DNA of 64,000 nt from Desulfitibacter sp. BRH_c19 (GTDB lineage: Bacteria > Bacillota > DSM-16504 > Desulfitibacterales > Desulfitibacteraceae): positions 1 through 64,000 of the forward strand of contig LOER01000040.1 in NCBI GenBank assembly GCA_001515945.1. Direction: 5' to 3'. Shown piece after piece: positions 752-21,152 of this stretch. The translations under genes and the position numbers were made by a program. The first letter of the stretch is position 1, and each line of letters opens with the position of its first letter. The notes beneath the pieces were generated by a model. It saw only the letters and a list, made by a program, of their open reading frames with translations. It did not search any database and was not told where the DNA came from.

Positions 752-778
752 AAAGAGGAGATTTCATATCTCCTCTTT
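752..778 (-). terminator. Terminator of the moeA pair
   Basis: AAAGAGGAGAT pairs perfectly with ATCTCCTCTTT around a 5-base loop. On the minus strand it is followed by CATTTTTAAG. The stem starts inside the last codons of moeA (Lys-Glu-Glu-Ile-stop), so the gene end and the terminator overlap. Confidence 0.75.
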
Positions 779-1996
779 TAAGAGTACTGCTTTAACTATT
801 ACTCCCGGTGGGATTGGCCCTGTCCCTGCTGGTATATCTATTAGTGCATTACAGCCAGCCATTGATTTCATTATACTTGACGCCTGTTTGCCTGTCTGCT
901 TTGCAACCCATTTTCCGTTTTCATAACTTACATGAACCCTTAAATACCTGCGTTGAGGGCTTTTTTTACTAAACCCTTCTTCGAGTATTACCTCTAAAAT
1001 AGGTTGTTTTATATTTTTAAATCCTTGAAATTTCTTAATCAAGGGCCTTACTAAAAGTTCAAAGCTGATTAAAGCCGCTGCTGGATTTCCTGACAATCCA
1101 ATCATTAATTTCCCATCCTTAACCGCCCCTATTACTGGAGTCCCTGGTTTAATATTTACCCGGTTAAAAAGGATTTCAGCACCGATGTAACGAAAAGCAG
1201 CTTCTATTAAATCATAGTCACCAACTGAAGCTCCACCGGTAGTTACTATTAAATCATTATCCTGCAAAGCAACAAGGATTTTTTCTGCTATTGCTGTTGT
1301 ATCATCGGAAATACATCCTAATGATCTGCCCTTTCCCCCTAAACTGTTTATTAAGGCTATGAGGGAAGGTAGATTGCTGTTATATATCTGGCCATGTTCC
1401 AGTTCTTCCCCAGGCAATTTCAATTCACTTCCAGTAGATAAAACAGCTACTTGTGGATTTTTATACGTTTTAATTTGTGTTAATCCTACTGCAGCAAGAA
1501 TACCAACATAATATGGTCCTAATAATTCACCTTTAGATAATAGAAGTTCTCCCTCTTTCATATCTGAACCTATAAAGATTACATTGCTATCAGAAGGCAA
1601 TTCTTCTGTTAAGGAAATTTGCTCTTCTTCATAAAGAACATCTTCTTTTTTTATGACCACATCTAGTCCATCTGGAATGGGGGCCCCTGTTAGGATTTTT
1701 ACACCACATCCGCCTTCTATCCTACTAATTTGTCTTGTGTCCCCAGCCTGGACTTCATCAACGATTGTAATTTTTACAGGTTTATCTTTGCAAGCACCTT
1801 TGGAATCTTCTGCCCTTAGCGCGAAACCGTCTAATGGGGATTTCTTGAAAGATGGAACATTTATTGGTGAATATATATCCTCAGCCAATACACGTCCATT
1901 AAGGTTTTCTATTAGTATAGTTTCCCCTTGCAATGGATTAATGTTATTTAATAATATATCTTGTGCCTCTTCCAATTCAACGATTTTAAACTTCAT
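764..1996 (-). CDS. moeA: Molybdopterin molybdenumtransferase MoeA
   Basis: This 410-residue protein has the full length and domain order of MoeA, which inserts molybdate (or tungstate) into adenylylated molybdopterin in the cytoplasm. Visible motifs are the N-terminal SPLDGFALRAED region, the MoCF-domain motifs VLSTGSELKLPGE and TTGGASVGDYD, and LSGNPAAALISFELLVRP. The ATG at 1996 is preceded by AAAGGAG at good spacing; an upstream in-frame Met would overlap the previous gene and has no such site. It lies 4 bases downstream of the second moeA-like gene and ends in a terminator. The pair sits behind a probable cofactor riboswitch and next to Mo/W enzymes, which fits its role. Confidence 0.93.
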   Translation of the reverse strand: MKFKIVELEEAQDILLNNINPLQGETILIENLNGRVLAEDIYSPINVPSFKKSPLDGFALRAEDSKGACKDKPVKITIVDEVQAGDTRQISRIEGGCGVKILTGAPIPDGLDVVIKKEDVLYEEEQISLTEELPSDSNVIFIGSDMKEGELLLSKGELLGPYYVGILAAVGLTQIKTYKNPQVAVLSTGSELKLPGEELEHGQIYNSNLPSLIALINSLGGKGRSLGCISDDTTAIAEKILVALQDNDLIVTTGGASVGDYDLIEAAFRYIGAEILFNRVNIKPGTPVIGAVKDGKLMIGLSGNPAAALISFELLVRPLIKKFQGFKNIKQPILEVILEEGFSKKSPQRRYLRVHVSYENGKWVAKQTGKQASSIMKSMAGCNALIDIPAGTGPIPPGVIVKAVLLKEEI

Positions 1997-2000
1997 TGTT

Positions 2001-3023
2001 CTATACTCCTTTTCCAAAGCTGCATTGGGGATACCTACAAGGTTTACATTCCAAGCATAGGCCTCCATGTCCTAGATCCACGAAATCAGCTTTAGTTATT
2101 CTTTCTCCAACAAGTACTCTAGGCAATATTAAATCGAATACGGTTATTTTTCCGTACATTACACATCCTGGCAAGCCCATAACAGGTGTATTCTCCAGAT
2201 ATCCCATGAGGAACATGGCTCCTGGTAAGACAGGGGCACCATAAGAAATAATATTGGTCCCCATTTCCCTGATTGCTGCGGGTGTAACATCATCAGGATC
2301 AACTGACATTCCGCCTGTGGTAAGAATTATTTCGGCACCTTGGTTTATTAACTCTTTAATAGCTTTTTGAATATGTTCCTTAGAATCTGGAGCCAATATC
2401 TGTCCGATTACCTCACTTCCATAGGGCTTTAACTTGTTTACAAGAACTGGACCAAAGGCATCTTTAATCCTACCGTAAAAAACCTCATTACCTGTTGTTA
2501 CAATTCCTACCTTGTGGGTTTTGTAGGGCTTAATTTCTACTAATCTTTCCCCTGCACATAATTCTTCGACATATTTAAGCGGTTTTTCATTGATGACCAA
2601 TGGAATAATTCGAGTTCCAGCCACAAGTTCTCCTTTTTTTACAGGACAGTTATTATGGGCCGTTGCGAACATAATATCGTCTAGGAAATTTATTTCTCTT
2701 AAAACTCCCTGGTTAATTTTTAGCAATCCATTGTACTGTGCAATGAGGTTCACTTTTCCTTCCTTGGGTTCAGTAAAGGTTATTCCACTTTTTCCTCCCG
2801 CTTTTGCCAACCTTAAAGCTGCCTCATCCTCATGAATCTGCCCGTTTTCCGGTTTCATTATATAAATATGGTCTTTTCCCAGCTTAAGAAGTTCAGGGAT
2901 ATCTTGGATTGAAATTATATGGCCCTTTTTATAGGCTCTTCCTTTGAATTCACTAGGTACAATTTTGGTTATATCGTGGCATAATACCATCCCTACAGCC
3001 TCTTGAACTTTTACCTTTTCCAT
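2001..3023 (-). CDS. MoeA-like molybdopterin-binding protein
   Basis: A 340-residue protein carrying a MoCF/MogA-type domain in its C-terminal half: GIVTTGNEVFYGR, LTTGGMSVDPDDV and MGLPGCVMYGK. The N-terminal part differs from classical MoeA and resembles the molybdopterin-binding paralogues often paired with MoeA in anaerobes. The tail is Cys-rich (CLECKPCRYPQC), which might bind metal. The ATG at 3023 has AAAAGGGG seven bases upstream; the ATG at 3029 is too close to it. It is the first gene after the riboswitch. It may handle molybdenum versus tungsten cofactor or another late step; the exact role is not shown by the sequence. Confidence 0.85.
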   Translation of the reverse strand: MEKVKVQEAVGMVLCHDITKIVPSEFKGRAYKKGHIISIQDIPELLKLGKDHIYIMKPENGQIHEDEAALRLAKAGGKSGITFTEPKEGKVNLIAQYNGLLKINQGVLREINFLDDIMFATAHNNCPVKKGELVAGTRIIPLVINEKPLKYVEELCAGERLVEIKPYKTHKVGIVTTGNEVFYGRIKDAFGPVLVNKLKPYGSEVIGQILAPDSKEHIQKAIKELINQGAEIILTTGGMSVDPDDVTPAAIREMGTNIISYGAPVLPGAMFLMGYLENTPVMGLPGCVMYGKITVFDLILPRVLVGERITKADFVDLGHGGLCLECKPCRYPQCSFGKGV

Positions 3024-3078
3024 TATCATTCCCCTTTTAAGTATTTTGTGCAAACAAGAAATTTTTGTAATAAAAAAA

Positions 3079-3106
3079 TCCTTATCCCCCAAAAGGAGAT
3101 AAGGAT
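3079..3106 (-). terminator. Riboswitch expression-platform terminator
   Basis: ATCCTTATC pairs with GATAAGGAT, extended by CTCC/GGGG, and is followed on the minus strand by seven T's. The CTCCTTTT part could instead pair with GGAAAGGAG in the upstream aptamer region, giving an on/off switch ahead of the moeA-like gene. Confidence 0.8.
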
Positions 3107-3235
3107 AGACTAGACCTATCTCTTTTCTCCTTTCCAATGGGGAGGTATAACCGTTTCCAGACATACCCCGTGAGTAGTTTTACTCAGGACTATATACCAT
3201 AGAACTTAACCTTAGGAAATATAGCCTCGGAGAAA
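3107..3235 (-). promoter_or_regulatory. Probable molybdenum (or tungsten) cofactor riboswitch
   Basis: Read on the minus strand, the leader starts with TTTCTCCGAGGCTATAT. It has a pairing partner ATATAGTCC, then a GC-containing hairpin, then ACCTCCCCATTGGAAAGGAG. The CTCCGAG...CCTCCC...GGAAAGGAG pattern resembles the Moco RNA motif as I remember it. It precedes a terminator and two moeA-type genes, the typical context. Whether it reads Mo or W cofactor cannot be told. A covariance-model search would decide. Confidence 0.7.
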
Positions 3236-3302
3236 TACAAAATACATTTCAAATATTAGTTAGCTTTTTTAGTTAATATTTGCTTGGACTTTACCTTTAA
3301 CT

Positions 3303-3513
3303 TCAGTAGAGTTTGTAATAAATTTTTGGTTCAATTACCATATATGCCATGATTGTAATCCCGATTGCTCCGAGTATCAATGACCATTCTACCCAAGTTG
3401 GAATATAGTTTGAATTGGACTAATCTGACAGGCAATTACAAAATTAATTCTCATTAAAAGTACACCAAACATTGCTAATATTGAAGCTCCAAAAACTCTT
3501 GCCGGTTGGAAAT
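3303..3513 (-). pseudogene. NrfD/PsrC-like quinol-oxidising membrane subunit, C-terminal remnant
   Basis: The minus strand reads ARVFGASILAMFGVLLMR and NFVIACQISPIQ. After a frameshift it continues with YIPTWVEWSLILGAIGITI and IEPKIYYKLY, ending at 3303. The R-N-x-V-I-x-x-Q core and the Pro-Tyr-Tyr segment followed by a last membrane helix are typical of NrfD-family C-termini. It starts immediately after arrD, with no start codon and one frame break. It is therefore a decayed second membrane anchor, separate from the intact arrC at 7487. Confidence 0.75.
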
Positions 3514-3514
3514 A

Positions 3515-4150
3515 CTAATTGGCCTTTGTTCCGGGTAAATTTTTTAAAAACTGCATATCTTCTTTTATAAATTTTTGCGTTAATAATGTTAAATTAATAT
3601 AAAAGTCAGTATTGGAATGTTTAACTACAGCTTTAGTAAAATCATCTATCCATAAACCTAAGTGTGTATTCAAAAATATTTCCTGCTTTACCAGATACAT
3701 CAATTCATTTGTTTCTAAATAACGGTAGTTTAAGTAATACAAAAACTCTAACTCTACCGCTATATGATCTGGTGCTTCTTTAAAAGAAGCATCTATTTCT
3801 AAACCTGCCTCTGCATACTGCCTGCAAGCATCCATAGTAGAGTCACCCATCACTTTTCTTTCATTATCCAAATATATAGATCCATAGGGTGCCGCTAATA
3901 CATCGAAAGGCCCCACAAACAACTTAGCATAATCTACTAATAAATAATTTGCATTAGCAGATGTCTTAGCCAAATCTTTTTCCATTTTGTCCATAAATTC
4001 AGTACCTGAATATATATAATCTGAGATTAGTTCTTTTAATTCTTTTACATATCCAGCGGTATCAGCATTTGGCTGATAATATAATAAAGAAAGCAGTTTA
4101 TAGATATCAGCTCTTTTTTCAATAATCTTTGTAGAGTTATTATTTGTCAA
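3515..4150 (-). CDS. arrD: TorD/DmsD-type chaperone for the arsenate reductase
   Basis: A 211-residue, mostly helical protein with the TorD-family signature around 'YAKLFVGP' and 'APYGSIYLDNERKVMGDST'. It also has the later 'DHIAVELEFLYYLNYR' motif, where the E-L-E-F-L pattern is typical. This family binds the Tat signal peptide and assists Mo-cofactor insertion into DMSO-reductase-family catalytic subunits. It is the last intact gene of the arr unit, 67 bases after arrB. Start is TTG at 4150 with GAGGTG seven bases upstream. The partner would be ArrA, which carries a Tat signal. Assignment to ArrD is by family plus position. Confidence 0.85.
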   Translation of the reverse strand: MTNNNSTKIIEKRADIYKLLSLLYYQPNADTAGYVKELKELISDYIYSGTEFMDKMEKDLAKTSANANYLLVDYAKLFVGPFDVLAAPYGSIYLDNERKVMGDSTMDACRQYAEAGLEIDASFKEAPDHIAVELEFLYYLNYRYLETNELMYLVKQEIFLNTHLGLWIDDFTKAVVKHSNTDFYINLTLLTQKFIKEDMQFLKNLPGTKAN

Positions 4151-4174
4151 AGTTATTCACCTCTACTTTTTAAT

Positions 4175-4210
4175 AGTACGGGAGCAGTGTTTTGGACACC
4201 GCCCCGTACT
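4175..4210 (-). other. Intergenic hairpin between arrB and arrD
   Basis: A 15-bp stem (AGTACGGGGCGGTGT with ACACTGCTCCCGTACT, with G-U pairs) has a short loop and no T-run after it on the minus strand. It is more likely an mRNA-stability or partial-attenuation element than a full terminator. It may lower chaperone expression relative to arrCAB. Confidence 0.55.
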
Positions 4211-4217
4211 GTTTATT

Positions 4218-4904
4218 CTAATAACTTCTAATATAAAACACCTTAGGCTTTGTACCTAACTCAGCTTTTAGTTGTTTAGCTCCATGCTTACTGATTAAAT
4301 AACTAATTTCACTATTGGGGTCATCCAAATCACCAAAAATACGGGCATCTGCCGGACAGGATTCTACACAATATGGCTTTACTCCATCTTTAACCCTATG
4401 GTCGCAAAAGCTACATTTCTCAACTATACCCTTAGGCCTAATTCCCGCATAGGTTTTTTCCCGATCTGGATTATAATAAGGAATGGGAGCGCCTGCTTTA
4501 TCTGCTACTTCTTTACCACTTGAAGTCCCGTCTTGGACAGCATTTTCACTACTGTTCCAAAATTTATGAGGGTTCTCTTTATTAAAATAGATTACCCCAT
4601 AAGGGTCGGCAATCATACAACTTTTACAACCAATACATTTTTCCGGGTCATGTAAAGTCATACCATTTTTATCTTTATACATGGCTCCTACGGGACATGC
4701 TTTTACACAAGGTGCATCTTCACAGTGATTGCAAAGGGTAGGCATAAACTCAAAACGGACATTGGGAAATTCACCGGTAGTTTTATGAACATAATTTGAC
4801 CAAAAGAAGCCCTCTTGCACATTATTTTCATTTTTACAAGTTATAGCACATGCACCACAACCTGCGCATTTATGCAAATCTATGACCATTGCATAGTTAG
4901 GCAT
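4218..4904 (-). CDS. arrB: Arsenate reductase iron-sulfur subunit ArrB
   Basis: A 228-residue DmsB/PsrB-type protein with four ferredoxin-like cluster motifs that pass electrons from the membrane quinol oxidase to ArrA. The cysteines are C13-C16-C19-C23, C58-C61-C66-C70, C90-C93-C96 and C164-C167-C179-C183. The third motif (CIGCKSCMIADPYG) has Asp100 where most homologues have the last Cys; the codon is a clear GAC. That cluster may be Asp-ligated or a [3Fe-4S] cluster. There is no signal peptide; such subunits usually travel with the Tat-exported catalytic partner. It lies directly downstream of arrA (18-base gap). Confidence 0.92.
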   Translation of the reverse strand: MPNYAMVIDLHKCAGCGACAITCKNENNVQEGFFWSNYVHKTTGEFPNVRFEFMPTLCNHCEDAPCVKACPVGAMYKDKNGMTLHDPEKCIGCKSCMIADPYGVIYFNKENPHKFWNSSENAVQDGTSSGKEVADKAGAPIPYYNPDREKTYAGIRPKGIVEKCSFCDHRVKDGVKPYCVESCPADARIFGDLDDPNSEISYLISKHGAKQLKAELGTKPKVFYIRSY

Positions 4905-4922
4905 ATAATCACCTCCGTTTTA

Positions 4923-7457
4923 TTAAACTTTTTCCACTTTTATCCTGGTAACCCCGCCATGGCGGGCAGTACTGCCGCTAAATCTATCATAATCGGCAGG
5001 AAGCAGTTCATTATTATTACCACCCCGGGGCAGCATCTTTTGGAAATCCTTGGCTGCTATTCTTCCATAAGCCCAGTGACCTTGACCATAACATTTTGCA
5101 ATAGTTCCAGGACGTACACCTTCCCAAAGCTTAGTCGTACATTCAATATGTCCTGTGGGTGAGATAAGTCTAATTTTGTCACCTGTTTTAATTCCTAATT
5201 TTGCTCCATCAACCGGGTTTATCTTAGCAACGTCATCCCACTTTTCATCACCTGGATCAACGTCTTTACAGTCCTGATACCAGGAACTGTTAGCGGAGCG
5301 GGCTTCACGATTTAATCTGGACCTGTGTTCAAAGAAAATAAAGGGATACTCATTTTCTTCACCCCAGCGGAATGCCGGCTCATAGTGAGGAATGAATGAA
5401 TGCTCACCAGTAACCGTGAATTTACAGGTCTTCATTATATCATCAACATCAGTAGCGTGCTTTTCTGCATGCCCTTCTAGTGATTTTTTTAATGTTTCAC
5501 TATAAAACTCAAACATCTTAGTTTCGGTATGGAAATTACCCCACATTTCTTTAAAAGGATATGGCTCCGAATTCCAAACACCTTTTTCCTGAAAATCTTG
5601 CCATCCTTGGAATTTATCGCCTTTACTATTTAGTGCTGGATCCCACATGGGTTGAGTAAACATCTTTAGAGCATATAAAGTAAATTCTAAACCATTAGTT
5701 GGCTTTTTACCTGTTTCCGGATCTTGGAACTCATTTTTATAATAGTTAAATAAATTAGGATATCCCTTTTGAGCCAATTTTTCTGCTATTAACCAGGGTA
5801 TTTCTGTTTCATCCATCCGTACATCCCACAGTGGTTCGATTACTCTTTGGTTCATGGTGGCATAGGCATATCTGTTAGCTTTGGATTTTACATAGCCCCA
5901 TTTTTCATATTTATGCTGGGCTGCCGGTAAGACAATATCTGCAAACTTAGTCATCTCAGCAGGGTTAGTAGTAATATGAACAAAGAATGGAAGCTTTTCT
6001 AAAGCTTTTTCCCATCTGGATGCTCCAGAACAGGAGAAGGCAAAGTTATTCCAATAACCGATAGCCATTTTAATTTCATAAGGATCTTCATTTAAAATTG
6101 CATCGGCTGCACGGTTGGTCACTACTCCACCACCAGATGCACCTTTCTTCAATGCCGGGAACTCCTTATAACCCCGTTGGTCCATTTTAGGATACTTTTT
6201 ACCTTTAGCAGCAATTTCATCTACATATGCATCATAGCTTGGGATACCATTAGCCGGTATCTTCATTACCTGCAAAGTACCGCCTTTATTATCAACAGAG
6301 CCTACCAGACCATTTAAAGCATGACAGGCCATTGCTGCATAAGCACCTCTAACCTGCATAGCAGAACCAGGTGCCAGCCAGGAGATAACATTAGGAGCAT
6401 TGCCAGCAAAATCTACAGCTACCCGTCTTATTTGTTCTGCAGGTACACCAGTTATATCCTGAGCCCATTCTGGAGTTCTATTCATGAGCTCCATATTCCA
6501 CCATTTAACTACACCGTATGTGTATTTTTCCTGGAATATATCCTCCTGCACCGAAACACCGGAACTAAATCTATTAATACCATCAACGAAATCCCCGACA
6601 AACTCTCTAGACCATAAGCCCTCTACCAATATTACATGGGCCATAGCTAAAGCTAACGCTCCATCTTCTCCGGGCACAACGGGCAGCCATTCATCGGCCT
6701 TGGAGGCGGTAGCTGAAAGTCTGGGGTCAATAACTGCCACTTTCGCCCTGTCTAAAACATCTCCCCAGACGTTAAGAGCACGGGGAACCTGTCTATTAGA
6801 GGCTAAGGGGTCTGCTCCCCATAATAGTACATATCTCGTATTTGGCAGGTCGTAATCCCGATAATCCCAAAAACCTTCTGTATAATATGCCCCAAATTTC
6901 TCCGCTTCAGCACAAATTGCACTATGGGAAATTCCATTAGGAGAACCATATACTTTAGTAAATGCATCATAGATAATATCACGCATATAAGTATAGCGAC
7001 CACGGAATGTCACATACTTATGAGTTTCATTGCTTCCACGCAGTTCCATCATTTTTTCAGCAATAGTATCAATTGCTTCATCCCAGGTTATCGGAACAAA
7101 CTGGGGATCTTCATTTCTGCCCTTCTTAGGATTTGTTCTTTTCATCGGTACTTTAATACGATCGGGGTCATAAACCTGTTGGAGTGATATATGAGCCCGG
7201 GGACAAACCTTTCCTTCCATTGCTTTGGAATTAGGGTTACCTCTAACTTTTATGGCCCTGCCATTTACTACATATACCTGAACAGGACACCATGTAGTAC
7301 ACCCCTGGCAGGTAGTGGATTTCCACTGGCCTTGTGATAATTTATTGGCAGCATCACTATTTTCTGCAAAAGCTGTTAACATCGGCTTACCTTTAATACC
7401 TGCAACAGCACCGGCAGCTACTGATAATTTTATAAACCCTCTACGGGAAACTTTCAT
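4923..7457 (-). CDS. arrA: Respiratory arsenate reductase catalytic subunit ArrA
   Basis: An 844-residue DMSO-reductase-family protein. It starts with a Tat signal (SRRGFIKLSVAAGAVAG) and then C50-x2-C53-x3-C57...C85 for the [4Fe-4S] cluster. The segment HSAICAEAEKFG (H178, C182, K187), Y199 and RGRYT (R154, Y155) match, with a constant offset of 11, the active-site residues I recall for the Shewanella ANA-3 ArrA structure (R165, Y166, H189, C193, K198, Y210). HSAICAE and EFVGDF are sites commonly used for arrA primers. It reduces As(V) to As(III) outside the membrane. Psr/Phs, tetrathionate or selenate reductases are less likely given this match. RBS and ATG at 7457 are clear. Confidence 0.92.
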   Translation of the reverse strand: MKVSRRGFIKLSVAAGAVAGIKGKPMLTAFAENSDAANKLSQGQWKSTTCQGCTTWCPVQVYVVNGRAIKVRGNPNSKAMEGKVCPRAHISLQQVYDPDRIKVPMKRTNPKKGRNEDPQFVPITWDEAIDTIAEKMMELRGSNETHKYVTFRGRYTYMRDIIYDAFTKVYGSPNGISHSAICAEAEKFGAYYTEGFWDYRDYDLPNTRYVLLWGADPLASNRQVPRALNVWGDVLDRAKVAVIDPRLSATASKADEWLPVVPGEDGALALAMAHVILVEGLWSREFVGDFVDGINRFSSGVSVQEDIFQEKYTYGVVKWWNMELMNRTPEWAQDITGVPAEQIRRVAVDFAGNAPNVISWLAPGSAMQVRGAYAAMACHALNGLVGSVDNKGGTLQVMKIPANGIPSYDAYVDEIAAKGKKYPKMDQRGYKEFPALKKGASGGGVVTNRAADAILNEDPYEIKMAIGYWNNFAFSCSGASRWEKALEKLPFFVHITTNPAEMTKFADIVLPAAQHKYEKWGYVKSKANRYAYATMNQRVIEPLWDVRMDETEIPWLIAEKLAQKGYPNLFNYYKNEFQDPETGKKPTNGLEFTLYALKMFTQPMWDPALNSKGDKFQGWQDFQEKGVWNSEPYPFKEMWGNFHTETKMFEFYSETLKKSLEGHAEKHATDVDDIMKTCKFTVTGEHSFIPHYEPAFRWGEENEYPFIFFEHRSRLNREARSANSSWYQDCKDVDPGDEKWDDVAKINPVDGAKLGIKTGDKIRLISPTGHIECTTKLWEGVRPGTIAKCYGQGHWAYGRIAAKDFQKMLPRGGNNNELLPADYDRFSGSTARHGGVTRIKVEKV

Positions 7458-7486
7458 CCATTCTTCCCTCCAGTCCTAAAGATATT

Positions 7487-8392
7487 TTATAAAAATGGGA
7501 ACCTAACTTGACCAACTATTAATACAATATGCTTTAATACAAAACCGCCGATTAAAATTAAGGCAGTAATAATGGGAGCAGCAGTTAAATTGTCTTTTCT
7601 TTTGTTTAGTTGAGACAGTATTAGAACTAAAGGAATTAGTAAGCCCACTATTATTACTCCACCCCACCAAAGCATACCGTGATTGGAAATTAAATAATCC
7701 AAAGCTTTTTGTGTTTCTAAAGTACCATTGTTTAAGGAAATAAACCAAACTAAGACAATTGTTATATTGGCTACAATTAAACCAAATAATAAACCTGAAA
7801 AACTAAAATTTCTACTCTGCCCATCAGCAGCTGCTGTTTCCCTTTGGGTAACATTACTTACTGTTGAGGATTTAAAGGAATTAATTAACATTACTACTGC
7901 TGTACCAGTTAAAATTGATGAAAATAAGAACATAACTGGTACTAATCCGCCGCTCCACAGACTTCTGCCAACATTTGCAGATAATAGTAAACCATGGTAT
8001 ATACCAACTGCTAAAGCTAATAGTGAACCGAGTATTAGGGTTAAGTTATATATGCCTGAATTGTCTTTGTTCTTCAAAATTAAATAGGCAAATATTAACG
8101 CAAGTAATATAAATCCTCCTTGCAAAAATACCCCCCAGGACATTACTGATGAAGAATTAAAATTGAAAATAGTTGTTATAAATCTCATAGGTTTACCCAG
8201 CTCAGTAATTAATGCTAACAGTCCTATCATTATTGATATAGGTGCAATAACTGCACTAAGTTTGATAAGTTCACGATAACGATCTTTGCCGTAAAAACTA
8301 AGTAATGCCGCAAACAGAAAAGCTCCTATTCCAAGTCCCCCTAGAAAAAAATCTAGAGTAACTCGAATATCCCATGGCGCATAAAAATTCAT
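7487..8392 (-). CDS. arrC: NrfD/PsrC-type membrane subunit ArrC (menaquinol oxidase)
   Basis: A 301-residue protein with about eight hydrophobic segments and NrfD-family landmarks: N-terminal LDFFLGGLGIGAFLFAALLS, the TELGKPMRF motif, the MSWGVFLQ motif, and a GIYHGLLLSANVGRSLW segment. This family anchors the AB pair and oxidises menaquinol. It is the first gene of the arrCABD unit and sits 29 bases before arrA. AAGGGAGG precedes the ATG at 8392. MenA encoded at 47200 could make the quinone. The intergenic space upstream contains a candidate operator. Confidence 0.9.
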   Translation of the reverse strand: MNFYAPWDIRVTLDFFLGGLGIGAFLFAALLSFYGKDRYRELIKLSAVIAPISIMIGLLALITELGKPMRFITTIFNFNSSSVMSWGVFLQGGFILLALIFAYLILKNKDNSGIYNLTLILGSLLALAVGIYHGLLLSANVGRSLWSGGLVPVMFLFSSILTGTAVVMLINSFKSSTVSNVTQRETAAADGQSRNFSFSGLLFGLIVANITIVLVWFISLNNGTLETQKALDYLISNHGMLWWGGVIIVGLLIPLVLILSQLNKRKDNLTAAPIITALILIGGFVLKHIVLIVGQVRFPFL

Positions 8393-8534
8393 TTACAAAC
8401 CTCCCTTATTAAAAATTTCTCATAATATTTAACTACAGATTAAATATTCTTTAAATTTACCCCCTTTGTGAAAATAATCTTAGTTTTATTATGATGTTTT
8501 TTTGTTGTTTTTCATATCGGTCAAAACCCTTAAG

Positions 8535-8551
8535 TTACATTTTTCATGTAA
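8535..8551. promoter_or_regulatory. Candidate operator of the arr unit (17-bp dyad)
   Basis: TTACAT and ATGTAA are separated by five bases, about 145 bases upstream of arrC and downstream of the regulator terminator. NarL-type regulators often bind inverted heptamers containing TAC, so it could be the site for the response regulator encoded next door. No footprint or second copy supports this. Confidence 0.35.
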
Positions 8552-8574
8552 GTAAATACCCCCAAAAAAAGAAA

Positions 8575-8602
8575 TGGTTGTAGGTGTTTTTGCCTACAGC
8601 CA
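8575..8602 (-). terminator. Terminator of the sensor operon
   Basis: TGGCTGTAGG pairs with CCTACAACCA (one G-U) around a loop of eight bases. On the minus strand it is followed by TTTCTTTTTTT. It separates the response-regulator gene from the arr structural genes. Confidence 0.85.
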
Positions 8603-8637
8603 CTTTTATCTAATACTTTTATAAATTTATCAGTCCT

Positions 8638-9291
8638 TCATTCAAATTCTATCAAGCCTTCATCAAAAGCGTATCTTACTAATTCCGATCTTCTACTTAA
8701 ATTCAACTTCTTTGATATTCTAGCTTTATGAGTTTCAACGGTTTTAACACTTATATATAATTCATCGCCTATTTGTTTATTGGTATAGCCTTGTGCTATT
8801 AATTTAAGTACTTCCGTTTCCCTTGAACTAAGAATTTGTTTAGATTCATTATTTTCTTTAGCAGCTGTTGGTGAGATAAAACCACTAAGAAGGTTTTCAG
8901 TCATGCTTGAATCAATATAGTATTCATTTCCATATACTGAGCGAATAGCAGACAGCAGATCTAAATCAGCGGCATTTTTAAGGATGTAACCGTGGCCTCC
9001 AGACTTTAGGACGTCTTTTAAATAGCTATCATCCTGATGCATTGTCAAAACTAAAATCTTAGTGTCAGGTGATAGCTGCCTAATATCAGGTATAGCCTTT
9101 AATCCCCCTTTGTGAGGCATGTTTAAGTCTAGAATTAAAACATCAGGCTTTAAAGTTTGGCATGAATGTATTGTCTCTACATCAGTAGCAGCTTCACCGA
9201 TAACCTCCATGTCATTTTGAGCATTAAGCATCATTTTTAAACCACTACGCAAAACTGCATGATCGTCAGCAATGACAATTTTAATTTTCAT
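8638..9291 (-). CDS. NarL/FixJ-family response regulator of the arr locus
   Basis: An N-terminal receiver domain has acidic D9-D10, a phospho-acceptor at D55 in LILDLNMP, and later LTMH and K residues. It is followed by a LuxR-type helix-turn-helix (SSRETEVLKLIAQGYTNKQI, then SVKTVETHKARI). It would bind DNA upstream of arrC when phosphorylated by the kinase whose gene it overlaps by about 10 bases. The ATG at 9291 gives the usual MKIKIVIADDH start; a TTG at 9300 has a better-spaced AAGGG and is possible. The terminator just after the gene closes this three-gene regulatory operon. Confidence 0.88.
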   Translation of the reverse strand: MKIKIVIADDHAVLRSGLKMMLNAQNDMEVIGEAATDVETIHSCQTLKPDVLILDLNMPHKGGLKAIPDIRQLSPDTKILVLTMHQDDSYLKDVLKSGGHGYILKNAADLDLLSAIRSVYGNEYYIDSSMTENLLSGFISPTAAKENNESKQILSSRETEVLKLIAQGYTNKQIGDELYISVKTVETHKARISKKLNLSRRSELVRYAFDEGLIEFE

Positions 9292-10705
9292 TAATATCAA
9301 CCATCCCTTCTAAGTTAATATGAAGATAGATAGTTGTTCCTTGACCTAGAGTTGATTCGATAGTTAATTGTCCTCCAAGCAAATTGGCCCTCTCCCACAT
9401 ACCATGTAAACCTAATTTCTTCTCTTTAATGGAAGAATTAAAAATTTTTTCTACATCAAATCCTACCCCGTTATCTTCTATTATGGCCATTAACTTATTA
9501 CCTCTTTTCTCTATTATAACACTAGCTTCTGTTGCCCGTGAATATTTTGCTATATTTGTTAGAGCTTCTTGAACAATTCTATAAATCGTTAGTTTAATTT
9601 CTGGCGGCAGTTCTATCCCAGTAATACCAATAGCTTGAAAATCAACATCTACTCCCAAACTTGCCAAACATTCCTGAGAATATCTATGCACAGCAGCCTC
9701 TAGTCCCAGGTCATCTAATAAACTTGGTCTTAAAGCAAAGGCCAGACTCCGCATATCTTCAATTGTATTATTTGCTATATGTCTTAAATCCCCTACTTTA
9801 TTTCTGACATCGTCAATATTGTCGCTGCTCTCTAACATTTTTAAACCTATCATTAATGACGTTAAAGATTGACCCATGTGATCATGAAGCTCTCTAGCAA
9901 TCCTACTTCGTTCTTCTTCCTGGGCACCTATTATTTTATTTAGTAAATTGGAGCGAGCATCATGGGCTTTTTGTAAATTCTCGATCATATTGTTAAATGC
10001 TTTACCCAAATCAAAAAATTCATCCTGTATCCACCAAAACTTTACTCGTTTTGTAAAATCACCTTTACCTACAGCGTTTGTAATTTCCACCATATGGTTT
10101 ATGGGTTTAGTCAAAACTGATGTTAAGAAATAGGCAGCAATTATACCAAAAAATCCAACCAATACAGTAGTTAGTAATAAGCCTTGCGTTGTTTTAAGTA
10201 ATAGTTTTTGAATTTCTCGCTCAGTCATGCCCAACCTAACGGTTCCTGCTCTATTATCAAAAATGGGTAATGCCAAGTCATAAACTAGACCTTCTTCAGT
10301 TTTTAAAATTTCTAAATTATATGCCTCATGTTCTATAACAGTATTACTTTGGATTAAACCTTGAGGTAATAACATTCCAAAGCTATTAGCAACTAAATGT
10401 CCTTCAGAGTCAAATATTAATACATAACGAACATCTTCATTATTTTCAACAATATTAGTGACAAGCTGATGCAATGCAAAACTATCATTAGTAAATATAA
10501 GGTCCACACTTCGTGCTGCAGCGTATTGTCCTAAAGAAATTCCTTGCTTGATCAACTGCTCACGCAGTGTTGTTTGCATTGTAAAATAATTTTGTGCAGA
10601 TGCAAACAGGCCTAGTATCAAAACTAGACCAACCACAATACCCATAATTTTTACTCTGACACTAGCATAGGTTAAAAGATTTATTAAGGCTCTACTTTTG
10701 CTCAC
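9281..10705 (-). CDS. Membrane sensor histidine kinase (HisKA_3) of the arr locus
   Basis: 474 residues. A first membrane helix (about 20-38) is followed by an extracytoplasmic sensor region (about 40-172), a second helix (about 176-197) and HAMP. Then come a HisKA_3 domain with RIARELHDHMGQS (His274) and an HATPase with DNGVGFD and GLHGMWERA. This is the NarX/DegS-like class that pairs with NarL-type regulators. It overlaps the upstream lipoprotein gene by 14 bases, so the three proteins are probably made in a fixed ratio. The neighbouring PhnD-like protein may present the oxyanion to the sensor domain, as proposed for ArxX-ArxS systems. Confidence 0.88.
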   Translation of the reverse strand: MSKSRALINLLTYASVRVKIMGIVVGLVLILGLFASAQNYFTMQTTLREQLIKQGISLGQYAAARSVDLIFTNDSFALHQLVTNIVENNEDVRYVLIFDSEGHLVANSFGMLLPQGLIQSNTVIEHEAYNLEILKTEEGLVYDLALPIFDNRAGTVRLGMTEREIQKLLLKTTQGLLLTTVLVGFFGIIAAYFLTSVLTKPINHMVEITNAVGKGDFTKRVKFWWIQDEFFDLGKAFNNMIENLQKAHDARSNLLNKIIGAQEEERSRIARELHDHMGQSLTSLMIGLKMLESSDNIDDVRNKVGDLRHIANNTIEDMRSLAFALRPSLLDDLGLEAAVHRYSQECLASLGVDVDFQAIGITGIELPPEIKLTIYRIVQEALTNIAKYSRATEASVIIEKRGNKLMAIIEDNGVGFDVEKIFNSSIKEKKLGLHGMWERANLLGGQLTIESTLGQGTTIYLHINLEGMVDINEN

Positions 10706-11636
10706 TTAGCACCTCCTCAACCATATCTCTTAAACTATCATAATCTTTGTCCTCTTGAACAACAAATTCATCTATTCGCAAATGTTCAAGAATCCTTTGT
10801 CCTTCAATATCAGTATGCATAGTTAACAATATTCTTTTTAAGTTTGATGCCAGTTCCAAATCTAAATCAGGTCTAACTACTACAGGTGGCATACCAAATT
10901 CCACTGAAGTGTTAATTATCTTCACTTTTTCTATAAAACTCGGATCATTTTCAATTGTATGGTCAAAAACCAAGCTGTCAACAGCAGCTCCATCTACTAC
11001 ATTATGCGCTACTGCTGTGATAGAATTGTCATGGCTATAGGTAAAAGTCACACTATTAAAAAAGTCTTTAGGCATATATCCAAATTTTTGAACTAGAAAA
11101 GTAGGATAGATATAGCCTGTATTAGATAAAGGATCAGTAAAAGCAAATCTTTTATTCTTTAACTCTTCAAATGAATAAATATCACTACTCGAGTCTACTA
11201 TAATATATGATCTGTAGGTGTTTTTACCTTCAATTTGTGGGGTTAAAAAAGGCTTTAAATTAAATTCTTCAACACCTAACACATAAGCATAGGTACAGAT
11301 AAAAGCTAAATCTATCTCCCCTTTCTTCAATAAATCATTTACTTCTTGATAGGTCTTTCTTTGGACAACTTTAATAGGCATTCCTACCTCTTTTTCAAGA
11401 TACTTTAACAAAGCACTATAATATACAATGCTTTCTTTAGGTGAAGTCATTGAAGATATAGCAACTCTCAAAAATTGGCCATCATCATCATTTTTTTGCT
11501 GGTCATCGATTGGCTGAAGATCATTTAATGTTACTTCCTGGTATTCTTTAGGGTTACTTGTACAGGAAGTGGCAAATAAAAGAGCAGCTGTAAGAAATAA
11601 AATTGTAATTATGTGATGCTTCGGTTTTAATGACAT
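10692..11636 (-). CDS. PhnD-like phosphate/phosphonate-type binding lipoprotein, probable oxyanion sensor
   Basis: A 314-residue lipoprotein with a signal peptide ending in LFATSC and a PhnD/TorT-like fold. The domain starts at LRVAISSMTSPKESIVYYS and continues with GEIDLAFICTYAYVLG, FAFTDPLSNTGYIYP and VVDGAAVDSLVFDH. ABC permease genes are absent, so it is unlikely to be a transporter component. It is co-transcribed with a kinase and regulator upstream of arr. In arx/arr loci of other bacteria a similar protein is thought to sense arsenic oxyanions. The ATG at 11636 has GGGGAG at good spacing and gives a clean signal peptide; an upstream Met does not. Confidence 0.83.
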   Translation of the reverse strand: MSLKPKHHIITILFLTAALLFATSCTSNPKEYQEVTLNDLQPIDDQQKNDDDGQFLRVAISSMTSPKESIVYYSALLKYLEKEVGMPIKVVQRKTYQEVNDLLKKGEIDLAFICTYAYVLGVEEFNLKPFLTPQIEGKNTYRSYIIVDSSSDIYSFEELKNKRFAFTDPLSNTGYIYPTFLVQKFGYMPKDFFNSVTFTYSHDNSITAVAHNVVDGAAVDSLVFDHTIENDPSFIEKVKIINTSVEFGMPPVVVRPDLDLELASNLKRILLTMHTDIEGQRILEHLRIDEFVVQEDKDYDSLRDMVEEVLSEQK

Positions 11637-11824
11637 ATTTCTCACTCCCCAGCATTTGAATGTATACATATCATTGTAAACCATATTTACTTTAAAATGA
11701 AGGACATAAATTTTAACAAGTGTCAGTATTGTTTTAAAGCTGGTATCCTAATTATTCAACTTTTGCCCCATATGACTCAGCAAATGAAATTGCTTGAAAA
11801 ATGTCTATCTTCGTACCTTTAAGG

Positions 11825-14156: not shown

Positions 14157-16040
14157 TTATTTGGGCAAATCTTTAACTAAGTACTCCAAACCTAATTCTT
14201 TAAGCTTTTCTTCTGTAGGAACACCATTATTGTCCCAGCCTCTTAATCGATAATAGTCATCCAGCATTTCATCAAGATGAACTACCAAATCCTTTTTTAT
14301 GGCTTCTTTGGGATGTAAAATAAAATCATCATCAGCAACCATTTTATATACGTTGATTGCTTCTTTCAAAAACCTTTTTGGTAGCTGATCGTCCTTTCGA
14401 TTCAGTCCAAGGCGAACATTGTACATCCTCTCAAGGTTAACTATTCTTTCTCCAGCTTTAACAAGCTCATCAGTAGTATATTTCTGTCCTAAGGCTGTTA
14501 ACCCGCTACTTATATCTTCAGGATACAAGCAATAGTTTTCTGTAGTGGAAAACTTACACACACCTACTGCATCACTAATGGCATTATAGGCTTCTGTAAA
14601 TTTAATCATTCTTGCTTTATGTTTTTCAATACCAATGTCCATAATTTCAGGATAAATATCATTAAAATATTTTTTTGCAACGTCCACATGTCCCGCAAGG
14701 TCAATAGTGGGTAAAGCGTAGAGGTGATCTGCTCCCCTATTGGCAACTGCATGGCCTAAGGCGAAGGCTTTTACTACCCTTGGTTCCTGTCTTGGTAATT
14801 CCATTCCCTTTACGTGCATTGCTAAATCCTCTGCCCCATTACCAATCTTTTCTGCTGCTCTTTTCACACCTTCAGCAAGTAAGTCGCCGATACCATCTCT
14901 ATAGGCTATCCTAGTTATTAACTCTATAATTTCTGTTGTATTACCCCACTCAAAGTTTAGCTCATCATCACTTATCAGGCCTTTTTCTTTACATTCCATG
15001 GCGAAGGCTATAATCACCCCAGTAGAGATGGTGTCCATACCATAATCATTACATAACAGGTTACCATAAATAATTGATTCTAAATCTTTATTGCCGAGTA
15101 AAGGCCCTAGAGCATTCATAGTTTCATACTCGGGACCTTCAGTTTCACATGCAAACTCACCAGTCTCAACCTTGGAATATCTAGAACATCTAATAGGGCA
15201 TGCAAAGCAACCCATATTTTTCTGCAAATATTTCTTTAGTTCCATAGCATTAACACTCAAATTACCTTCAAATTGCACTTGCTGATGGTTTCGAGTAGGT
15301 TGATCACCTACTGTATTTTTGGGATCCATTAAAAGAGCTGTTCCCCATTCCCGTAGTCCTGCTGAACCTGGATGATCTTTTACCTGTTTCATGGATTTCT
15401 TTGCTATTTCTTTAAACTCAGGGGAGGCTTCTACTCTTTTACTTGTCCTCACGGTAACAGCCTTTAGATTTTTTGATCCCATTACAGCACCTAACCCACA
15501 TCTTCCTGCGGCACGCCCAAAGTCATTAATTACAGAAGCCATCTTAACCAGCTTCTCTCCTGCAGGACCAATACATGCAACCTTTGAACCAGGATACTTG
15601 TCTCGTAGCTCAGTCTCCACCTGAGAGGTTTTCATTCCCCAGTATTTTTCCCCATCTATAAATTCAATTGCTTCATCCTCAATCCAGACTACTAGAGGCT
15701 TTTCTGCTTTCCCAGTAAAAACAACTGCATCATATCCAGCCCTGTGCATCTCTGGTCCAAAATGACCTGATGAATTTGCATATCCATATATTCCAGTCAA
15801 GGGTGACTTAGCTGTCACAGTATACCTTGCTGAGGCAGGCCACTGAGTACCTGTTAGTGGGCCAGGAGAAAAAATTAAATAGTTATCAGGACCTAATGGC
15901 TCTACATCAGGGTCTACATTATCGTAAAGTATTTTTGCAGCATAACCCCTACTGCCAATGAAATTCTGAAGATCATCTTTAGGAGTTTCAATTAACTTGT
16001 ATGTTTGACTCGTCAAATCAACATATGCTGTAAATCCCAT
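14157..16040 (-). CDS. Aldehyde:ferredoxin oxidoreductase (tungsten type), copy 1
   Basis: A 627-residue AOR-family protein, near the usual ~600. The N-terminal domain shows the cofactor-binding segments SARYTVTAKSPLTG, RCGLGAVMGSKNLKAV and AGRCG. The cluster motif C278-x2-C281-x3-C285 (MGCFACPIRC) has a late Cys in DAVGVCKF. The family oxidises aldehydes to acids with ferredoxin, using a bis-pterin tungsten cofactor; it also includes enzymes such as BamB that reduce aryl-CoA substrates. It ends the operon with the molybdenum hydroxylase. Aldehyde substrate unknown; benzoyl-CoA-type reductase is less likely without other bam genes. RBS AAAGGAG before ATG 16040. Confidence 0.9.
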   Translation of the reverse strand: MGFTAYVDLTSQTYKLIETPKDDLQNFIGSRGYAAKILYDNVDPDVEPLGPDNYLIFSPGPLTGTQWPASARYTVTAKSPLTGIYGYANSSGHFGPEMHRAGYDAVVFTGKAEKPLVVWIEDEAIEFIDGEKYWGMKTSQVETELRDKYPGSKVACIGPAGEKLVKMASVINDFGRAAGRCGLGAVMGSKNLKAVTVRTSKRVEASPEFKEIAKKSMKQVKDHPGSAGLREWGTALLMDPKNTVGDQPTRNHQQVQFEGNLSVNAMELKKYLQKNMGCFACPIRCSRYSKVETGEFACETEGPEYETMNALGPLLGNKDLESIIYGNLLCNDYGMDTISTGVIIAFAMECKEKGLISDDELNFEWGNTTEIIELITRIAYRDGIGDLLAEGVKRAAEKIGNGAEDLAMHVKGMELPRQEPRVVKAFALGHAVANRGADHLYALPTIDLAGHVDVAKKYFNDIYPEIMDIGIEKHKARMIKFTEAYNAISDAVGVCKFSTTENYCLYPEDISSGLTALGQKYTTDELVKAGERIVNLERMYNVRLGLNRKDDQLPKRFLKEAINVYKMVADDDFILHPKEAIKKDLVVHLDEMLDDYYRLRGWDNNGVPTEEKLKELGLEYLVKDLPK

Positions 16041-16068
16041 ATTTCACTCTCCTTTCCTATAAAATGAT

Positions 16069-16548
16069 TTATATATCGTTTTTAGCCTTAGACCCAACCT
16101 CTTCAATGGCATCTATAACTTGTTCATATCCTGTACACCTACACATGTTTCCAGAGATTGCAACTTTTATTTCGTCTCTAGTAGGCTTTGAGTTTTTATC
16201 CAGTAAACTCTTTGCACTTAACAGCAAACCAGGTGTACAAAAACCACATTGCACAGCATTATGCTTTATGAAGGCATCCTGTAATGGATGAAGCTTCTCC
16301 TCATCTGCTAGTCCCTCAATGGTTATTATTTCTTTGCCTTCCATTGAAGCTGCTAATACCAAACATGAGTTAACATTTCGATCATCTATTATAACTGTAC
16401 ATGCTCCACACTCGCCTACTCCGCAGCCTTCCTTGGTTCCTGTAAGGTCTAGTTCATTCCTTAGCACATCAATTAGCCTTGCATAGGGTTTAACACTAAC
16501 AGTAATAGGTCTTGAATTGACTGTCATGGATACTAGAATTTTTTCCAC
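16069..16548 (-). CDS. Molybdenum hydroxylase small [2Fe-2S] subunit
   Basis: A 159-residue protein with both cluster domains of the xanthine-dehydrogenase/CO-dehydrogenase small subunit. The plant-type ferredoxin motif is GVGECGACTV with the later SC, and the helical domain has CGFCTPG and MCRCTGY. It carries electrons from the molybdenum site to FAD. It abuts the FAD-subunit gene by one base (16548/16549). Together with the next two genes it forms a complete trimeric hydroxylase of purines, nicotinate, aromatics or similar N-heterocycles. Confidence 0.93.
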   Translation of the reverse strand: MEKILVSMTVNSRPITVSVKPYARLIDVLRNELDLTGTKEGCGVGECGACTVIIDDRNVNSCLVLAASMEGKEIITIEGLADEEKLHPLQDAFIKHNAVQCGFCTPGLLLSAKSLLDKNSKPTRDEIKVAISGNMCRCTGYEQVIDAIEEVGSKAKNDI

Positions 16549-17412
16549 CTATTCCACCCCCCATGCCTGTTTTAACGCCCTGTTAGCAAGTGTCTCTATA
16601 ACTGGCCTTTTATACTCTGTTGACCAACGGATACCTGTCCTGTTGATCATTTCCTCTGAAACCAGCTTGCTTGCCTGTGCTATAAGCTCCGAGGTTGGCT
16701 TTTTGTTTAAAAGTATTTTTTCAGCTACCTTGACCCTGTCTGGTGTTGGAAATACAGATCCAGGAGCTATTCTTGCCTCTTCAATACAACCATCATCACC
16801 AATACCCAAGGCTACTGCTATATTCATCCGTGCTATTGCTAAAGCCTTTCTACGCCCCAGCTTAATAAAAGCAGTCTTTGTTGTTTCTGATAAAATCTTA
16901 AAGCTTATTTCAACAAGAATTTCATCAGACTCTATATTTGTACAATAGGGCTTTGTAAAAATACTGATTAAAGGTAGCTTTCTTTCTCCCCTTATGCTTC
17001 TAAGTTTAATATCTGCATTTAAAGCTATTAAAGGTGGTATAAGATCAGCTGCTGGGGAAGCATTGCATATACTACCACCAAGGGTACCTCTATTTCTTAT
17101 CTGGGGAGAGCCTACTGTAGAAGCTGCCTGGGATAAAAAGAAAGCTTCTCTTTGGATTAATTCTGATTCTTGCAATTCATGGTGCGTTGTAAGACCACCA
17201 ATATAGATATGGTCGTCTTCTTTTTTAATGTAATTGAGCTCCTTAAGCTGGTTGATGTCTAGGACACACTTTAAGTCCTGTAGCTTTTCCTCCTGTGCCC
17301 TAATCTGTACCATAAGATCTGTTCCGCCAGCTAGTATTTTTCCCTTAGATTGTGCTAAGAGCTGACAAGCTTCTTCTATTGTATCTGGTCTAAGATAGTT
17401 ATACATAATCAT
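16549..17412 (-). CDS. Molybdenum hydroxylase FAD-binding subunit
   Basis: A 287-residue CoxM/XdhB-like flavoprotein. The N-terminal FAD-binding motif is AGGTDLMVQIRA, the second one TVGSPQIRNRGTLGGSICNASPAADL; the latter includes the conserved TxGGxxxxA-type loop. The C-terminal CO-dehydrogenase flavoprotein domain follows. Its start overlaps the large-subunit stop in TAATG, with AGGAGGTG eight bases upstream, indicating translational coupling. It accepts electrons from the small subunit and passes them to NAD(P)+ or ferredoxin. Confidence 0.92.
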   Translation of the reverse strand: MIMYNYLRPDTIEEACQLLAQSKGKILAGGTDLMVQIRAQEEKLQDLKCVLDINQLKELNYIKKEDDHIYIGGLTTHHELQESELIQREAFFLSQAASTVGSPQIRNRGTLGGSICNASPAADLIPPLIALNADIKLRSIRGERKLPLISIFTKPYCTNIESDEILVEISFKILSETTKTAFIKLGRRKALAIARMNIAVALGIGDDGCIEEARIAPGSVFPTPDRVKVAEKILLNKKPTSELIAQASKLVSEEMINRTGIRWSTEYKRPVIETLANRALKQAWGVE

Positions 17413-19733: not shown

Positions 19734-19811
19734 AGCCTTCCCTCCACATTTTAACCTAATACAATGGTTATTTTTTGAGCAAAACATTAATTTTTGCCAC
19801 TAAGTTTTTAT

Positions 19812-21152
19812 TTATTTGCTAAGGTATTCCTTTAAGTTCACATTTTCATAGACTACACGTTTGTAATCCTTGTTTTCTTCAGATAAGGTTGCATCAATTC
19901 CCATTTTGGTCTGCACCCCTCTAGCATCAGAGCATGGATCTAGCTCATGACCCTGGGAGTTTGGTACATAGAATATATCCTTTTCAGGCTTCACCCTAGT
20001 AGACATTGCCCACATAATATCTCCTGGATTAAATATGTCTACATCAGGATCAACAACGATTACATTTTTGATATTAACATAGGCTGTCATTGCAGCTAGG
20101 GCAACATTCTTGGGCTCTCCAGGATTACTTTTTTTAAGCTGTACAAGTGCCAAAAATCCTCCTCCATAGGGAGGAATGTGTACATTAGTAACATTTTTTG
20201 ATACATAGGTTGTAAACTTCTTCAATAATGGTTCTCTGGGTAACACATTACCCAAATTAATATGCTCGTAGGAAGCCCCTGAAATAGTCTGGTAGATTGG
20301 ACTATTTCTATGGCATATAGCCTTAACAATAAGGGTAGGACTCTTCCATGGTTCGCTATAGTGCCCTGTAAATTCTCCTAAAGGTCCTTCTTCTTCCCTT
20401 ATGTTTGGAATTATTTCAGCTTCAATTACTATCTCTGATGTTGCTGGAACATAGATGTCAGATGTCTTACACTTAACAACTCCAATGGGTTCACCACGTA
20501 ACGAGCCTGCTATTTCTGTTTCATCACCGTCAAATCTATATCCTGCAGCTATCATAATTACTGGATCTACACCAATAACTACAGCAATGGGAAGGAGTTT
20601 CTCTTGAGCTTCAGCAGCATCATAGAAGTCTTTTAGATGCCTCCACTCATTGATCATAATCCCCATTTTGTCTTTACCCTTAACCTGCATCCTCTGGAAA
20701 GAAAGGTTATGGGTGTTACCATCTAACCCTTTGGAAACTATAACTCCTCCAGTTATAAATGGTCCTGCATCCAAAGGAGCATGAGTAGGTATGGGTAACT
20801 TACTTAAATCCACGTCATCTCCAAGGATAATATTTTCATGGCATGGAGCATTTTCCACCACACATGGCTTTACTGGGTTTTCTAATGCTCTGCTGCATAT
20901 CTCTACAATGTCTTCTTTTTTGCAGTCTAATGCAAGTGCTATTCTTTCTTGGTTACCCAGAACGCCACCTATAACCGGAATATTGTAGCCCTCAATATTC
21001 TTGAAGTAGCCTGCCCCTAAGCCATCCTTTTCCAAAGTAGATAGTACACTTCCTAACTCATGGTCTATAGACACTTCCTTTTCGATTTCTTCCAACTGCC
21101 CTGCATCCATTAAAACATTCATGAAACTTCTTAAGTCTTTTATTTTATTCAA
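19812..21152 (-). CDS. UbiD-family decarboxylase
   Basis: A 446-residue UbiD-like protein. The catalytic region reads IPNIREEEGPLGEFTGHY, containing the Arg/Glu/Glu pattern of the prenylated-FMN (prFMN) active site, and the NLSFQRMQVKG segment lies before it. UbiD enzymes need prFMN from UbiX; no ubiX is visible in the window. Family members decarboxylate or carboxylate aromatic and heteroaromatic acids. Next to a molybdenum hydroxylase and AOR it suggests breakdown of a carboxylated aromatic or N-heterocyclic compound. ATG 21152 is supported by AGGTGTATT upstream, a weak site. Confidence 0.88.
   Translation of the reverse strand: MNKIKDLRSFMNVLMDAGQLEEIEKEVSIDHELGSVLSTLEKDGLGAGYFKNIEGYNIPVIGGVLGNQERIALALDCKKEDIVEICSRALENPVKPCVVENAPCHENIILGDDVDLSKLPIPTHAPLDAGPFITGGVIVSKGLDGNTHNLSFQRMQVKGKDKMGIMINEWRHLKDFYDAAEAQEKLLPIAVVIGVDPVIMIAAGYRFDGDETEIAGSLRGEPIGVVKCKTSDIYVPATSEIVIEAEIIPNIREEEGPLGEFTGHYSEPWKSPTLIVKAICHRNSPIYQTISGASYEHINLGNVLPREPLLKKFTTYVSKNVTNVHIPPYGGGFLALVQLKKSNPGEPKNVALAAMTAYVNIKNVIVVDPDVDIFNPGDIMWAMSTRVKPEKDIFYVPNSQGHELDPCSDARGVQTKMGIDATLSEENKDYKRVVYENVNLKEYLSK

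Follow-up and report, generated by a model that had tools for sequence, protein, structure and literature searches.

Among the closest described systems is the respiratory arsenate reductase (Arr) of Shewanella, ArrAB (6cz7; NF041714/NF041715). ArrB is tabulated as a 4x[4Fe-4S] protein (PMC8076601; PMC2500031), and among related B subunits one native [3Fe-4S] cluster is present in ActB and QrcC (PMC8076601) and in NarH (PMC8301774). On the regulatory side, ArrXSR modules with a CitB/NarL-type ArrR have already been described in Firmicutes and Chrysiogenetes, and the ArrX of Chrysiogenes arsenatis binds arsenate (dissociation constant 1 uM) and phosphate (150 uM), and not arsenite (Badilla et al. 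2018, PMC5908839). Here we analysed 64,000 nucleotides of Desulfitibacter sp. BRH_c19 (contig LOER01000040.1, positions 1 to 64,000; hereafter the window), whose minus strand carries at 3515-11684 seven intact open reading frames (ORFs): arrX-arrS-arrR and, after a gap of 245 nt, arrC-arrA-arrB-arrD. We hold with considerable confidence that this locus encodes a quinol:arsenate oxidoreductase under arsenate control, in which one ArrB cluster has Asp in place of its fourth Cys.

The locus shares with Shewanella ArrAB the full-length homology of the A and B subunits, the active-site motifs and the twin-arginine translocation (Tat) signal on A, and with known Arr operons the genes for an NrfD anchor and a TorD-type chaperone. 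It differs from Shewanella ArrAB in its A subunit (53% identical), in the Asp that replaces one ArrB cluster Cys, and in the first place taken by arrC (C-A-B-D). As in the ArrXSR of C. arsenatis and Firmicutes (PMC5908839), a periplasmic binding protein with a conserved pocket, a kinase and a NarL/CitB-type regulator are encoded beside arr; unlike in C. arsenatis, the equivalent of Ser163 is Thr, and the gap holds a different palindrome and no FixJ-like site. AioXSR and ArxXSR have the same sensor family and three-gene logic, but their ligand is arsenite and their regulators are of AtoC type, whereas the window combines a NarL-type regulator with ArrA. NarH, QrcC and ActB are likewise tetracluster ferredoxin subunits with one cluster short of a Cys ligand; they are, however, [3Fe-4S] proteins of other complexes, whereas the window protein is part of an arsenate reductase and has Asp for the fourth Cys of motif III. 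In NarH, it is a Trp that replaces a different Cys of this motif.

Asp100 in the Fe-S subunit ArrB

ArrB carries four Cys motifs. The 16 cysteines that would mark four [4Fe-4S] clusters are reduced in the window protein to 15 plus Asp100, which aligns with the fourth Cys of Fe-S motif III (CIGCKSCMIA-D100-P). The best solved match is Shewanella ArrB (6cz7_B, E-value 3e-87), which has Cys at the equivalent position. We read the protein as a variant inside the Arr family because everything else about the locus, its catalytic subunit included, is Arr. The ArrB features are as follows:

4218-4904, minus strand: arrB, electron-transfer subunit for four Fe-S clusters (15 Cys and Asp100); Fer4 dicluster domain
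4605-4607, minus strand: ArrB Asp100 codon (GAC), replacing the fourth Cys of motif III
4746-4748, minus strand: ArrB Phe53 codon, fixed only in the Asp clade and immediately preceding motif II

In ferredoxin pairing, a cluster takes three Cys of one motif and the fourth of the partner motif. With the usual pairing, residue 100 would supply the fourth ligand of the cluster on C58, C61 and C66 of motif II, and from the motif we expect either a [4Fe-4S] cluster with Asp as ligand or a native [3Fe-4S] cluster with a changed potential. Asp100 might instead be no ligand, leaving a [3Fe-4S] cluster on three Cys, of the type present in NarH, QrcC and ActB, that shifts the potential of one relay step; we regard this as a serious possibility, if short of probable. 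It draws support from the native [3Fe-4S] clusters of those related subunits, and from the ability of Asp-ligated clusters to shed their fourth iron, as in D. africanus ferredoxin III and P. furiosus ferredoxin. Against it, all 6/6 members of the clade described below have Asp at this position and no mix of non-ligating residues, so the carboxylate seems to matter.

F53, D100 and K150 are the sole ArrB columns that are invariant within the Asp clade and almost absent from other ArrB sequences, and no compensating Cys common to the clade was found in the ArrB alignment. A literature search, which did not cover subscription papers, turned up no Asp ligand in ArrB, which does not prove that none has been described; the arsenate-breathing system itself is of a known kind.

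The ArrX-ArrS-ArrR sensing module

Upstream of the reductase genes lie the following features:

10692-11684, minus strand: arrX, PhnD-like periplasmic/lipoprotein oxyanion sensor; Phosphonate-bd, E-value 9e-65
11295-11297, minus strand: ArrX Cys130 codon, equivalent by alignment of AioX Cys106
9281-10705, minus strand: arrS, sensor histidine kinase (sCache_3_2-HAMP-HisKA_3-HATPase_c)
8638-9300, minus strand: arrR, NarL/CitB-type response regulator (Response_reg-GerE)
8579-8598, strand unassigned: TGTAGG-N8-CCTACA palindrome between arrR and arrC, a candidate ArrR site, terminator stem of arrXSR, or both

The original prediction, made from the letters alone, proposed arrC-A-B-D with a sensor, a kinase and a regulator in overlapping genes upstream, and this arrangement is borne out by the seven intact ORFs and their domains, with overlaps of 14 nt (arrX/arrS) and 20 nt (arrS/arrR). 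The span given there, 3515-11636, marks a real locus, but the longest arrX ORF reaches 11684 and 11636 is an internal ATG; a start at that ATG, with a shorter product, is plausible as well.

The best solved match of ArrX is C. arsenatis ArrX (6x6b, E-value 7e-61), followed by AioX (7e-37), PtxB (7e-26) and PhnD (8e-9). Comparison with the AioX pocket (Y88, C106, Y131, S161, S163, H192 and D210) gave Y112, C130, Y157, S187, T189, H218 and D236 in the window ArrX, 6/7 being identical and S163 being replaced by Thr189; Thr is also found at this position in other family members, including those of Mesobacillus selenatarsenatis and Sulfuricella (ArxX). AioX Cys106 is the arsenic-binding Cys and is absent from PhnD (PMC5908839). 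The pocket residues are one criterion for the AioX/ArxX/ArrX family, and another is that genes for a kinase and a response regulator accompany the sensor gene next to those of an arsenic molybdoenzyme, as they do here; the module is by sequence a member of that described family.

That phosphate or some other oxyanion is what the lipoprotein senses, with the locus serving phosphate-linked control, is highly improbable. C. arsenatis ArrX does bind phosphate, with 150-fold lower affinity (PMC5908839), and Phosphonate-bd domains are also found in transporters, but the equivalents of Cys106 and Asp210, which differ in PhnD (PMC5908839), are conserved in the window ArrX, and arrX overlaps the kinase gene and adjoins arr, with no ABC transporter genes alongside it. 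Since C. arsenatis ArrX binds arsenate and not arsenite, arsenate is the likelier ligand of the window ArrX. Thus the earlier proposal that the lipoprotein senses arsenate or arsenite for the kinase stands as regards the sensor, with its ArrX-family match and conserved pocket, and is weakened as regards arsenite; the parallel it drew with ArxXSR names the same sensor family, but overlooked the closer ArrXSR precedent (PMC5908839), so the idea is not new.

On the mechanism that we infer, arsenate bound outside the membrane by the ArrX lipoprotein would switch on the ArrS kinase, and ArrR, phosphorylated by ArrS, would activate arrCABD by acting in the 245 nt that separate arrR from arrC. The palindrome in this gap is the sole match to TGTAGG-N8-CCTACA in the 64 kb, where 0.05 is expected, and it also scores as terminator-like. 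The FixJ-like TCAGG-N-CCTGA of C. arsenatis is absent from the arr region, with one occurrence elsewhere in the window. A common ArrR consensus was considered and dropped, as the palindromes upstream of arrC or arrA in relatives vary and partly overlap terminators. As a separate observation, one other locus (L052) has at 9059-9074 a perfect TCAGGGTTTTCCCTGA, about 190 nt upstream of its arrA match and near in form to the FixJ-like site of C. arsenatis arrA.

The catalytic subunit ArrA and the neighbouring genes

The remaining genes of the locus and those beyond arrD are:

7487-8392, minus strand: arrC, NrfD-type membrane anchor, predicted to be quinol-oxidising; NrfD, E-value 1e-36
4923-7457, minus strand: arrA, catalytic subunit with molybdenum bis(pyranopterin guanine dinucleotide) cofactor and Tat signal; Molybdopterin/Molybdop_Fe4S4 domains
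ArrA motifs: RRGFIK at residue 5, CQGCTTWC at 50, RGRYT at 152 and HSAICAEAEKFG at 178, with Tyr199 downstream
6990-7004, minus strand: ArrA RGRYT (residues 152-156), the motif separating ArrA from ArxA (XGRGWG)
6891-6926, minus strand: ArrA HSAICAEAEKFG (residues 178-189), in which Cys182 aligns with the Mo-ligand Cys of Shewanella ArrA
3515-4150, minus strand: arrD, TorD/DmsD-type molybdoenzyme chaperone; Nitrate_red_del, E-value 4e-27, and PRK04976 TorD, E-value 5e-24
2001-3164, minus strand: MoCF-domain (MoeA/MoaB-like) protein, located 350 nt downstream of arrD and perhaps accessory to the Mo cofactor
764-2068, minus strand: moeA, molybdopterin molybdotransferase; MoeA_N/MoCF_biosynth/MoeA_C domains

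The alignment of ArrA with solved Shewanella ArrA (6cz7_A, 1035 bits) runs over residues 39-844, up to the C-terminus of the window protein; the next family is PsrA (173 bits), and the profile model of TtrA gives 78 bits only. This match, like that of the window ArrX with C. arsenatis ArrX, far exceeds what chance would give. The window ArrA is 53% identical to Shewanella ArrA, 64.5% identical to that of Mesobacillus selenatarsenatis and 35-36% identical to ArxA. The Tat signal, RGRYT, HSAICAEAEKFG and downstream Tyr proposed from the letters alone were found at residues 5, 152, 178 and 199; the Asp of ArrB had gone unnoticed there. Arg154, Tyr155, Lys187 and Tyr199 align with Arg165, Tyr166, Lys198 and Tyr210 of Shewanella ArrA, residues for which the Glasser study of 2018 reportedly shows a functional role. 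Among NCBIfam families, those for ArrA and ArrB (NF041714/NF041715) fit the window proteins best, by a wide margin and over their full length, with scores below the curated cut-offs. By sequence, then, the window ArrA is a genuine member of the respiratory arsenate reductase family.

That the enzyme is instead of the Arx type, oxidising arsenite with a quinone acceptor while the lipoprotein senses arsenite, is very improbable. In its favour, ArxA is the sister group of ArrA, the pocket residues of ArxX are the same, down to the Thr in place of S163, and XSR modules go with arx too (PMC5908839). However, (R/K)GRY is given as the mark of ArrA and XGRGWG as that of ArxA in the part of PMC6549141 that cites Glasser 2018, and the window ArrA has RGRYT, whereas both ArxA sequences compared have YGRGW. 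In a maximum-likelihood tree rooted on ArxA, which included named ArxA sequences and left out TtrA and SrdA, the window and solved Shewanella ArrA fall together on the ArrA side of a split with 100/100 support; branching inside a non-arsenate clade was the outcome named as adverse by the original prediction. The window order is C-A-B-D, without the extra Fe-S gene (ArxB') that precedes arxA in both arx loci, and its regulator is a NarL-type ArrR, not AtoC-type.

In a quinol:arsenate oxidoreductase of this kind, menaquinol would be oxidised by ArrC, and electrons would pass through the ArrB clusters, one of them assigned to three Cys of motif II and residue 100 of motif III, to the [4Fe-4S] cluster of ArrA and then to Mo, where As(V) would be reduced to As(III); ArrD would help cofactor loading ahead of Tat export. 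The same genome encodes Acr3 arsenite efflux at a site away from arr (contig C30, 42213-43205; L067). Elsewhere in the window, the interval 14157-21152 holds a gene of the aldehyde:ferredoxin oxidoreductase family next to genes for a UbiD decarboxylase and for a three-subunit molybdoenzyme resembling xanthine dehydrogenase/4-hydroxybenzoyl-CoA reductase, a gene group that suggests aromatic or heterocycle metabolism.

Distribution and history of the Asp100 lineage

Asp100 was present in 6/30 aligned ArrB sequences: the window, L007 (= G085), L046 (G082), L047 (G041), L049 (G042) and L050 (G381), which represent six Bacillota genomes of at least four families. The remaining 24/30 have Cys at this position, including the nearest outsider (L008, from a Gracilibacter metagenome-assembled genome, MAG) and the Bacilli loci L022 and L023. 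A search of 398 Bacillota genomes with the pattern CxxCxxCxx-Ala-Asp-Pro-Tyr-Gly returned exactly these six places, and the reversed control returned 0; in the viral contigs searched, no relative was found. In the full ArrA trees, the six Asp100 loci form one clade (99/99).

Sequencing error or gene decay as the source of Asp100 is barely conceivable and is in the main refuted by the six genomes with Asp: a TGA interrupts arrA in one relative (L007, a MAG), but the change from TGY to GAY takes two base changes, and Asp recurs in six independent assemblies with intact arrB frames, whose arrA path lengths from the window reach about 0.5 changes per site. The TGA itself, the only one in frame in the L007 arrA (2711-5245), occupies codon 629 in place of a Trp of the window (VWNS) and probably reflects either a nonsense mutation or an error of assembly.

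The order XSR-C-A-B-D is common to relatives' loci L008, L046 and L047. In L049 and L050, two arr loci of the Asp clade, XSR is present and arrC is undetectable between arrR and arrA, which would make the Asp independent of an ArrC anchor in the operon.

When X, S and R are concatenated, the resulting tree joins the window to L008, the Cys-type locus of Gracilibacter (100/100). The window regulator genes (8638-11684) are closest to L008 5867-8811, at 57-62% identity, whereas the reductase is not. By the approximately unbiased (AU) test, constraining the Asp loci together was rejected for X+S+R (p-AU 4e-5), and constraining the pairing of the window with L008 was rejected for ArrA (p-AU 8e-4). 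The AU tests thus support the conflict in both directions: the regulators and the reductase have different histories, which is consistent with module exchange and agrees with a general statement in PMC5908839.

We consider it an evenly balanced proposition that a Bacillota arsenate reductase lineage evolved a native Asp100 ligand, long fixed as it tunes or gates menaquinol-to-arsenate electron flow, and that in the window this reductase was joined to a regulator module of other origin. Several findings weigh against our interpretation of the locus. The role of Asp100 as a ligand is deduced from motif position alone, and the AlphaFold model of ArrB (built with 15 sequences) is too poor around residue 100 for ligand geometry to be judged, with a mean predicted local distance difference test score (pLDDT) of 62 and values <50 at residues 101-129. 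In a 10-row ArrA tree, a single origin of the Asp receives no more than 32% of bootstraps. The trait is patchy, arrB being absent from the two other genomes of the genus and from the one other genome of the class. Finally, both proteins miss the curated NCBIfam cut-offs (ArrA, 1174 vs 1600 bits; ArrB, 328 vs 450), and automatic annotation may therefore not call these genes arr; such a cut-off is a naming threshold and no biochemical feature.

The locus likely marks an arsenate respirer with its own control module in a Bacillota class represented here by four genomes. Of greater importance than this probable respirer is the Asp ligand: the lineage-wide substitution of Asp for Cys would amount to a natural experiment on cluster potential versus electron transfer in complex iron-sulfur molybdoenzymes, and Asp100 may serve as a one-residue marker of this arr clade in environmental data.

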